DNA of 64,000 nucleotides from contig JAHLKD010000053.1 in NCBI GenBank assembly GCA_025526935.1, positions 62,001-126,000 on the forward strand, in the 5' to 3' direction. The stretch's first letter is position 1; each line of letters opens with the position of its first letter. Shown here one piece after another: positions 56,091-63,118 of the stretch. Source of the DNA: Cladochytrium replicatum. Its lineage: Eukaryota > Chytridiomycota > Chytridiomycetes > Cladochytriales > Cladochytriaceae. The notes under the pieces were generated by a model that had not been told where the DNA came from, did no database searches, and was given only the letters and a program-made list of their open reading frames with translations. Position numbers and translations under genes: made by a program.

Positions 56091-56656
56091 CTAACAGTTA
56101 TTCCAAGCCGGAATGTTAATAACATTCGGACGGACCGTCCAACGCGAATTTATTAAATGCGGACGGACCGTCCACCGCGTTTTTATTAGCCACGGACGGA
56201 CCGTCCAGCGCGTTTTTATTAGCCACGGACGGACCGTCCAGCGCGTTTTTATTAGCCACAGATGGACCGTCCAGCGCGTTTTTATTAGCTATGGACGGAC
56301 CGTCCAACCCATTTTTATTAACCATGGACGGACCTTCCAGATGCAATTTATTCTGCTACAACTGTAATTCATGCTACCTCAATCTCTCTTGTAGGTGGAT
56401 TTTTCACTAAGTCTTTTCATTTCATGGGCCCAGCGATGATGCTGTTGGGCGAGAGTCCTTTGATTTCGTGGGCAAGAGCATGCTACTGGAGTAGAGAACT
56501 GATTCTTTGTATTTGATTGTCCAAAATCTCCACCAACCATACACCTTGATAACAAGCTTCTCTGCCACGCAGGGGGGTTATCAGGGCAAGACCTGGCCAC
56601 AGGGTCTTCCTGCTATAGATAGTGGATCTCAACTTCCTCTCCGTCCATACCACAGC
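56091..56656 (+). repeat. Iteron module B (left repeat of the element)
   Basis: Boundary CTAACAGTTATTCC, then at 37 bases the array: seven 33-bp units at 56128, 56161, 56194, 56227, 56260, 56293 and 56326. The fifth unit starts AGATGGACCGTCC and the last ends CTTCC. The following ~310 bases match modules A and C until about 56656 (CCATACCACAGCTTC). Confidence 0.85.
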
Positions 56657-56767
56657 TTCCACCGCTGCTATTAGTGCAACTTCCACTCTCGTCAAAGCTA
56701 GTCAACAATCTGAAGTATGCTCTCACACGGTACAGTATACACTAGGTGCTCATGGTCCTACCGTTAG

Positions 56768-60271: not shown

Positions 60272-62469
60272 AGATTTCCTAGCGAGTGGGGAGGATGCAG
60301 CAAGGGCAAATACTGTTCTGCAAGCCACGGAGCTACTTCGTACTTTCACTGGAAACCGATATGCACACTTCAGATCAGATTCCATCAGAGAGGCCATCTG
60401 CAAGAGTGAAAAACATACTCTACTGGTGTCACCAACTGGGTCTGGAAAGACCGTGGTACCGGCCATCCTGGCAGCGTTGAACACAGCAGTTCTGCATGTG
60501 CTGATATCTCCCCTACGAGCTGTTGCAGCGGAGATCAGAAAGCGACTGGAAGAGCTGCGGATTCCTTGTTACCTGTGGAGTGAAGTGAAAGCCCACAAGA
60601 ACAAGCTGAACGCAATAGCTGGTCATCCGGGGCTACTGCTATGTCAAGTAGAGCAACTTGACAATCCCGGCCTGCTTTCCACAGAATTGGTCCAAATATG
60701 GGAGAACGGGAGGCTGGGGACAGTGATACTGGACGAATGTCATATTCTCCTCACCCAACGTCACTTCCGTGAGGCCATGACCAACGTCAGGGAATTTGTA
60801 CACAAGTCAAAGTGTGCTAGTCGACCACTCGGAAGTTGTCGCTTTTTGTATATGACAGCCACCATGCCTGTAGTTCTCCAGTCCGCATTCGAGCAACAGG
60901 TTGGCCTGGGCCGTGGAGAGCTGAGCGTTTGCAGGTCTCCGACCGACCGTCCTGAGTTGGCATATTTTGTTAAGAGTTGGCCATTAGCGGAAGTGTGCGA
61001 GTATGTACGGGCCACATGCCAGCGCACCATCATATATATTGCCAACGAAGAACAACAGGCTCAGATCAAGAGTTTGCTTCTGGGAGGACCCAGCGCCAAA
61101 GAAGCAGTTCCGACAAACATGCACCCGTGCTGTCATCATGGATCGAAAATGTCAGAACTGGACAGAAATGTGGATCTGTGTCGATGGCTAGGCTGGGAAG
61201 GCCTAGATCAGTGGCGCGACCCTATTGCTGCAATGGCGGACATGTCAAGGGTGATGATAGCAACCAGTGGTTTGGGTGCAGCTCTGAATGTGGACGACGT
61301 TGGCCTTGTAGTTGTTGTCAGTTGCTCTGGGATGATGGAGCTCAGTCAGATGGGGGGGAGGGCTGCAAGAAACGGTTCAGTTGGCATTGAGATCCTCATT
61401 CGGAATGAGGGGTTTATGCATATACGCACCGAAGAAGAACTATCTCCCGACCGAGCTGCACTACTGGAGTACATGCAAACCAGTTCATGCTTGCGCAGAG
61501 TAAAGATCACATTCTTGGACGGAAACCCCAATGCACCCGAGTGTCGCAATTCCTGTGCGAAGCTGTGCGGAAACTGTGGCGGACAGTCCAACCTTTACCT
61601 AAAATTGGGGCAGCAACAGGAGACTCCACCTGGTCAGCAATACAGCGGTACCCTCTTTAGCAGCACATCCTCCACAACCACCTCTACGCAATCGGACGTA
61701 TCGCGCGTTCCAGAAACTCCGAGGATCATCAGGACACAAACTCCAAACTACTGGGACTCACCTACTCCACTATATGGGCCCCCTGGTGCAACGCAGCCTT
61801 TAGGGACTTATCACGAAAGACCCTTCCTGATCAAACCCATACCTAATAGGGGGCACATATCTCCAGGTAAGTGTTAGTTGAAAAGACAATAAGTTAACCA
61901 CTAAGGGTTATTGGCAAAATTTGCACTCAGACTCATTCTCGGGCCATCATTTTGGCAAACAACGGTCATCTTCCAGCTCATACACCTTGAAGAACCAGAA
62001 GGATTATGAAGAGAGTCCATCTTCTAGCTCATACACCATGAAGAACCAGATGGATTATGAAGAGAATCCATCTGGTCTGTCTCTGAAAAGGCCAAAGGTT
62101 TGGATCCCCGTTTTGACATGTATGTTATACTTCGCCTGATCATCTTTCAAGTAGTTGCTTCAGCACTCCTCTGTTAAGTCAGATTGGTCTTGGTCACACC
62201 CGGAGGATGGTTCAGTTCAGTGGCTTCCAGCGGATGTTGGGAGCACCCAGTCAAAGTGGAGGACCTTTACTACAGAACACAAACCTAATGATTTCCAGGT
62301 AGATATGGGTTTGTCACTGTCACAGCAAAATCCACACCCTAAGGTCTTTCGGCCATCTGCAAACCCATTACCTGCTGTCTCCACAGCTTCAGTCATCCCA
62401 CACCTAACAGTTATTCCAAGCCGGAATGTTAATAACATTCGGACGGACCGTCCGAGGCGAATTTATTAA
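60219..62469 (+). CDS. RecQ-like superfamily 2 helicase of the mobile element
   Basis: ATP-dependent DNA helicase related to RecQ. Motifs: Walker A in SPTGSGKTVV, DECH box in TVILDECHILL, motif III in YMTATMP, and motif VI in QMGGRAARNG, where RecQ proteins usually have GRAGRDG. A Cys cluster follows (PECRNSCAKLCGNCGG), in the place of the RecQ zinc region. The first exon 60219-61866 ends at a strong donor; 61931-62097 and 62155-62469 continue in frame to give 709 residues. The stop at 62467-62469 lies inside module C, so the downstream repeat supplies the end of the protein. The ATG at 60219 overlaps the OrsD-like frame by 53 bases; translation as one fused protein after splicing at 60188-60233 is possible. 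Helicase plus OrsD pairing suggests replication-linked mobility, but this is inference. Confidence 0.75.
61969..62070. repeat. 51-bp in-frame tandem repeat
   Basis: Two units of 51 bases encoding SSSSYT(L/M)KNQ(K/M)DYEE(S/N)P in the C-terminal tail of the helicase model. The in-frame unit supports the inferred splice into this exon. Confidence 0.85.
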
Positions 62470-63118
62470 ATGCGGACGGACCGTCCACCTCGAATTTATT
62501 AGCCACGGACGGACCGTCCAACCCGTTTTTATTTGGCGCGGACGGACTGTCCAACCCGTTTTTATTTGGCGCGGACGGACCGTCCAACCCATTTTTATTA
62601 ACCATGGACGGACCTTCCAGATGCAATTTATTCGGCTTCAACTGTAATTCATGCTACCTCAATCTCTCTTGTAGCTGGTTTTTTCACTAAGTCTTTTCAT
62701 TTCATGGGCCCAGCGATGCTGTAGGGGCGAGACTCCTCTGATTTCGTGGGCTGGAGCATGCTGCTGGAGTAGAGAACTGATTCTTTGTATTTGATTGTCC
62801 AAAATCTCCACCAACCTTTCACCGCGATAACAAGCTTCTCAGCCACAACGGGAGATATCCTTGTCAGGAAACCAGAGGCAAGGCCAGACCACAGGGTCTT
62901 CCTGCTATAGATAGGGGATCCCACCTCCCGCTCCCTGTCCATACCACAGCTTCTCGAGGGTATTTCCAAACAGCGAAGTCCAGAAAGTGGCATCCATGAT
63001 CTGAGAAAGTTTCGGACAGCAGAGTAACATCTTCTTGAAGCTGAAAAAGACGACGGCAAATTCGAGCAAGCTCTGTAAACTTTTCCGTATTTTGTAGATA
63101 TAGGAAGAGAAGGGACTT
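62404..63118 (+). repeat. Iteron module C (right repeat of the element)
   Basis: Boundary CTAACAGTTATTCC at 62404; at 37 bases the array of six units: 62441, 62474, 62507, 62540 (GGACGGACTGTCC), 62573 and 62606. Spacers of units 3 and 4 carry TTTGGCGC in place of TTAGCCAC. The following ~500 bases match module A closely, including a minus-strand coding tail, up to the junction with the inverted OrsD copy at about 63118. Confidence 0.85.

Follow-up and report, generated by a model that had tools for sequence, protein, structure and literature searches.

Copies of an OrsD-helicase element with one constant end, mainly at contig ends, in the chytrid Cladochytrium replicatum

Repeat modules and successive copies at the C53 locus

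The window, a stretch of 64,000 nucleotides corresponding to positions 62001-126000 of Cladochytrium replicatum contig C53 (assembly of 50.5 Mb in 198 contigs), contains a block of related copies, including the gene-bearing copy that starts at 56091. This copy opens with a constant-end module (56091..56767, + strand) starting with CTAACAGTTATTCC, the true element end probably being CCTAACAG. A 17-bp palindrome, GAATGTTAATAACATTC, lies at offset 20 (56111..56127) between the element end and an array of 33-bp iterons (56128..56340), which consists of palindromes of the GGACGGACCGTCC type (the dyad of the array) and begins at offset 37. The OrsD, central and helicase gene region follows (56768..62403, + strand) and is truncated at 62404, where the next copy starts. 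Module starts are found at 54291, 56091 and 62404, all on the + strand. A chance origin of these repeats can be ruled out, as shuffled windows gave a mean of 0.29 matches to CTAACAGTTATTCC at ≤2 mismatches and none of 100 reached three. The modules at 56091 and 62404 align with 84% identity across 569 bases, and their first 183 bases are 93 and 92% identical, respectively, to those of the 54291 copy. The two direct repeats with a common start that were originally predicted from this DNA are therefore real, as is the palindromic 33-bp array placed exactly 37 bases in: the first iteron unit sits at offset 37 in 48 of the 53 modules scored (one module is without any unit), with a spacing of exactly 33 in 225 cases. 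Of 74 modules examined, 69 have the palindrome at offset 20, ≤2 substitutions being allowed.

It was initially thought that these repeats bracket a single autonomous element, however, each of them starts a separate copy, the copies lying end on end with outward ends that vary. As no constant outward end was seen, the direct repeats are read as the starts of successive copies and not as transposon ends. The right-hand repeat belongs to a copy made of a module plus an EXT piece (62404..63119, + strand), which extends to about 63119 and there abuts an inverted gene-bearing copy (63119..64000, - strand), the first in a - strand array reaching C53:132404. In contig coordinates the + copies start at 116291, 118091 and 124404 and the - copies span 127688 to 132391, so that the two arrays meet head to head at window position 63119, with telomere repeat absent at the joint. 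C1 is arranged in a similar way, with telomere repeat present there as a degenerate head-to-head tract; a short tract of this kind lies within the contig at L040:5190-5258 (C1 about 73.7 kb), with a + module before it and - modules after it. Both joints may have arisen either by fusion of chromosome ends or during assembly. The predicted third copy at another flank is present at 54291..55671 (+ strand), but in a short form in which the module is joined to the outward EXT and PRE part, and judging from this structure it probably derives from the long element by internal deletion. On its left it is joined to a stretch repeated in many genomic copies, whose + frame resembles the gag of a retroelement. 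Compared with 2.5 kb of another copy of this stretch, no resumption was found in about 2.6 kb to the right of the C53 block.

Gene content of the element

The window gene copy is frame-broken near 60.2 kb, where a 937-codon frame (57458-60271) gives way to one of 567 codons (60174-61877). On C11, C52, C61, C82 and C192 the OrsD and helicase parts form one stop-free frame of 1479 codons; the original prediction placed the domains correctly between the repeats, but they are parts of a single gene and not of two. OrsD (PF12013) is matched with E 2.9e-12 in the intact C11 copy. The SF2-type helicase part (60174..61877, + strand) matches PF00270 (DEAD) with E 1.1e-14 and carries GSGKT, DECH and QMGGRAARNG; its matches are to DEAD, ResIII and, weakly, Helicase_C, which upholds a helicase but not a RecQ identity beyond these domains. 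A frame with a CCHC knuckle sits outward of the gene (L029:2-643). Proteins P0010-P0012 share 23-24% identity with the gene product over 27-28% of the query, and a PDB search with protein P0001 found nothing. Matches to C. replicatum proteins reach 98%. No reverse transcriptase (RT) match was obtained in the main frames scanned of the gene-bearing element, and no recombinase, transposase or RT has been demonstrated in the gene. Differences between copies are too few to tell whether purifying selection acts. Small tandem repeats of 36 bp (57629-57709) and 51 bp (61967-62073) lie in or beside the helicase gene region of the window.

The central region (59474..59986, + strand) reads GAPPRLTDL ... 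K ... YRRFA ... GHSSHTAEAIY, with residues in tyrosine recombinase order. R684, K718, R807 and Y850 (numbering of the 1479-aa frame) are invariant in four proteins, in the order that R, K, R and Y have among the catalytic residues R-K-(H)R-H-Y of a tyrosine recombinase. However, P0011 has R in place of the GHS histidine, and HxxR lacks its first H. Searches of PDB, Pfam, PHROGs and NCBIfam gave no recombinase match for the region, and in hhalign comparisons 14 (local) and 98 (global) of 150 shuffles scored as well. Its motif scores, reached by 36, 71, 161 and 100 of 300 shuffles, are lower than those of three real divergent integrases (42-51), under a model that yielded boxes for only four of seven E. 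coli recombinases and whose best window in C. replicatum and P0011 differs from the proposed one. The predicted fold (pLDDT 30) is of no use here. A tyrosine recombinase domain is accordingly a lead from residue order, not an established feature; in the literature searched, the match for a tyrosine recombinase with a fungal subtelomeric RecQ concerns Trypanosoma cruzi.

The long form of the element can be followed on C8, where a copy starting at 750423 runs outward for about 10.5 kb before it meets telomere repeat (L028, L029); about 800 bases of its gene are missing. Across the ten contigs compared, the stretch outward of the gene is 97.8-100% identical. It contains a 405-codon minus-strand frame, convergent with the OrsD-helicase gene, which matches Tet_JBP in Pfam (E 3.9e-8; 33.1 bits, slightly under the cut-off of 34.9). 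Relatives of this frame in Geranomyces variabilis are 29-52% identical over 22-71% of the query and have in common with it an H.D ... EH ... R stretch, presumably the TET/JBP-type oxygenase motif; a PDB search with the alignment returned no match. The frame probably encodes a Tet_JBP-type oxygenase, likely to modify DNA bases. Its 49 genomic match rows include many near contig ends as well as internal ones.

Genome-wide distribution, the YCT joint and variable outward ends

CTAACAGTTATTCC has 164 exact matches in the assembly, 82 on each strand, and its reversed control sequence has none. Position and orientation were tallied for 100 listed starts of the 164, 87 of which lie ≤25 kb from a contig end. 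All but one of these 87 read from gene to end (86/87), the sole exception being C60:18168, and the remaining 13 listed starts are internal, on C1 (4), C3 (1), C53 (7) and C70 (1). Likewise, OrsD is matched in 57 rows genome-wide, of which 28 were tallied, and once the C53 row and one contig of unknown size had been dropped, all 26 were oriented towards the contig end. Long telomere runs were seen in 12 of the loci examined. The telomeres are built of the 10-base repeat TTAGTTAGGG (contig ends L010, L011, L022, L024 and L027), and the canonical (TTAGGG)4 has no exact match across the assembly. The original prediction depended on two features that hold beyond the window: the module boundary is constant across copies, and the gene adjoins modules at many contig ends.

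Module starts abut many unlike inward flanks. Among the loci examined, 74 upstream flanks, collected with one mismatch permitted in the CTAACAGTTATTCC start, differ over the 60 bases nearest to it, near-identical array copies being among them. The base preceding the start is C in 65 of them, T in 7, and G and A in one each; genome-wide it is C at 142 of 164 starts, and T (16) or A (6) but never G at the other 22. Flank sequence was known for 28 joints, two of which repeat counted contexts, leaving 26 distinct sites to be scored for the original target. Position +1 is C in 26/26, -1 is C (22) or T (4), and +2 is T (19), G (5) or C (2), with +3 (C in 11) the most uneven position outside -1 to +2. 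The target rule is thus a pyrimidine, then a C where the element supplies its first C, and usually T (YCT). The reference for each target is the best-aligned copy, and copies vary at a few sites (L050, L002 and L028-895); L057 and L028-895 may coincide, and L010 and L018-4760 are alike. One of the 26 sites (window 54291) lies in the repeated genomic stretch and the others inside element copies. Reading the element end as a telomere C-strand run was rejected, as CCCTAACAG fits only 41/164 starts, about the random level.

Outward, copies terminate at the next copy, at the TTAGTTAGGG telomere repeat or at other DNA. Ten telomere-capped copies stop at ten different points, L022 and L027 having been excluded from the 12 loci with long telomere runs since other DNA precedes their cap. 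As we read the table, 0-3 bases at these junctions are common to the element and the telomere repeat, and C86 has a small change immediately before its cap. No constant outward end was seen among the loci examined, a part of the 164 copies, nor did these loci show the constant second end or target duplication of a two-ended DNA transposon. In the C86 array, four units, each made up of a module and about 420 bases of the gene, recur with a period of 1061 bp and precede a longer copy, and the truncated units of the C53 array have a period of 1562 bp; in both arrays examined the truncated units end at C|CT. At the internal copies on C3 (476840) and C70 (78519), and at that on C60 (18168), the adjoining outward DNA has no element match, and the cut gene on C95 is separated from the telomere by a hAT frame. 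The other DNA outward on C3, C70, C60 and C95 implies either that attachment is not strictly terminal or that rearrangement followed. A LINE frame lies outward of the copy on C11. hAT transposase frames adjoin modules at two contig ends (L013:1616-3928 and L022:8135-9382). A minus-strand LINE with endonuclease and RT matches (L019:219-5013) immediately adjoins the outward side of a short copy on the same strand, and two other arrays have shortened LINE forms at this point (L026:3276-4499 and L012:1630-2838).

Possible modes of spread and relation to known elements

The overall pattern is one of near-identical copies, mainly at contig ends, whose constant inward end (CCTAACAG, palindrome and iterons) is joined at YCT. 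One constant end joined at such a site points to an agent recognising a single DNA end, for which the protein encoded next to it is the natural candidate. We therefore favor, at a probability of about 0.5, a chromosome-end element spread by protein-guided, one-ended joining of telomere-proximal segments. The OrsD zinc-finger/helicase protein would bind the palindrome and iterons and join the CCTAACAG end to a YCT site on another chromosome end. Everything outward, element and telomere alike, would be carried along, making a second end unnecessary, and erosion and telomerase would afterwards trim the outward side. Joining at a YCT within a sister copy would yield tandem truncated units, and the Tet_JBP product, which probably modifies DNA bases, might protect or de-silence copies. 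The overlaps of 1-3 bases at joints could instead come from short-homology repair. More generally, fungal telomere-linked helicases may be recombinases of a one-ended element, in which OrsD binds the iteron end, a divergent tyrosine recombinase exchanges at YCT, the helicase opens the DNA, whole tips move with their telomeres between chromosomes, and TET/JBP edits marks; we regard this wider scheme as possible but tentative.

The main rival to protein-guided joining is copying primed from a chromosome end, the way of Drosophila HeT-A/TART or break-induced replication. An eroded 3' end in YC(T) would anneal to the ...TTAGG-3' strand of the element, or to its RNA, and be extended, with incomplete copying leaving truncated outward ends. 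This would suit the constant inward and variable outward ends, the joint overlaps of mostly 1-2 bases and the LINE with endonuclease and RT matches outward of the short copy in L019, as well as the C found at the joint at three of four sites with an original T at -1, as if supplied by the template (the choice of reference may explain one of them). Nevertheless, end-primed copying seems rather unlikely considering that no frame scanned in the gene-bearing element matches an RT, that the gene sense strand runs outward, contrary to HeT-A-type elements, and that the overlap stops before the third base, with A at +3 in 4/26.

A passive subtelomeric repeat could also spread by homologous exchange or break-induced replication, as the yeast Y' element does between ends, with the gene as a passenger or a telomere-maintenance helicase. 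Near-identical copies do argue for free exchange between ends, however, homologous exchange alone gives neither one exact joint base across flanks nor YCT, which makes this distinctly unlikely. The rise of telomere-linked helicase genes in telomerase-less U. maydis would be in its favor (PMC10532341). Internal copies are what an ordinary two-ended transposon, inserting anywhere and surviving mainly at chromosome ends, would leave; the outward ends examined lack a constant second end, the roughly 2.6 kb compared to the right of the C53 block contain no continuation of the stretch to the left of 54291, and such a transposon is very improbable.

Tandem subtelomeric helicase repeats near telomeres are familiar from the S. 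cerevisiae Y' element, although Y' is not known to attach to unrelated flanks at a short target. HeT-A/TART of Drosophila and the terminons of rotifers resemble the C. replicatum element in their constant inward end, variable outward end and head-to-tail attachment, but they use RT and have the opposite gene sense, whereas the scanned C. replicatum frames gave no RT match. The element unites OrsD and helicase domains at an end position with outward orientation, and there is good support for its membership in the broad fungal telomere-linked OrsD-helicase kind, which it extends to a chytrid. Since the combination of helicase and DUF3505 (OrsD) has already been described from the chromosome ends of fungi (PMC5576322), the original prediction of an undescribed element type can apply to no more than the joining rule, iteron end and additional gene. 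In Colletotrichum higginsianum, elements of 11.3-18.5 kb named DHX_G198, DHX-chim_G203 and DTX-chim_G199 lie at all 24 subtelomeres and combine a helicase with DUF3505 in uniform orientation relative to the telomere; they differ in being single full-length copies, and the sections of that report drawn on here mention neither a constant-end joining rule nor tandem attachment, and neither iterons nor Tet_JBP (PMC5576322). Reports of subtelomeric helicase genes in fungi go back to 1998 (Sanchez-Alonso and Guzman, cited in PMC10532341), and what these genes do is still under discussion. The TLH RecQ-like helicases of U. maydis (UTASa, a helicase, and UTASb, with OrsD; PMC10532341) and of A. bisporus var. 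burnettii are likewise multi-copy and telomere-adjacent with truncated copies, and further telomere-linked RecQ-like helicases are listed by a citing paper for Magnaporthe, Metarhizium and S. pombe. The A. bisporus helicase is described as a core domain only, whereas the C. replicatum gene has OrsD, a conserved central region and a helicase, with a CCHC frame next to it; no further domain was found in the subtelomeric RecQ helicases as presented in PMC7473861.

TET/JBP oxygenases occur in fungal DNA transposons (PMC12730594), which likewise are mobile DNA bearing such an enzyme, but the C. replicatum element has no transposase match. In the main text of that paper Cladochytrium, Geranomyces, chytrid and OrsD have no occurrences, and the one passage with 'telomer' is a reference title. 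One-ended YCT joining, the iteron end and the Tet_JBP cargo were not found reported for this kind of element in the portion of the literature searched. A precise joining rule, an iteron end and a shared protein make it testable whether the protein moves chromosome tips, and a Tet_JBP-type enzyme becomes linked with telomere-proximal mobile DNA. The internal module on C3 is joined to AT-rich, probably mitochondrial-type DNA matching a LAGLIDADG endonuclease (L041:2-340 = C3:476501-476839; E 2.4e-20, read by table 4), a neighbor that may be compared with the homing gene of mitochondrial type that interrupts a telomeric helicase gene in U. maydis (PMC7593156).
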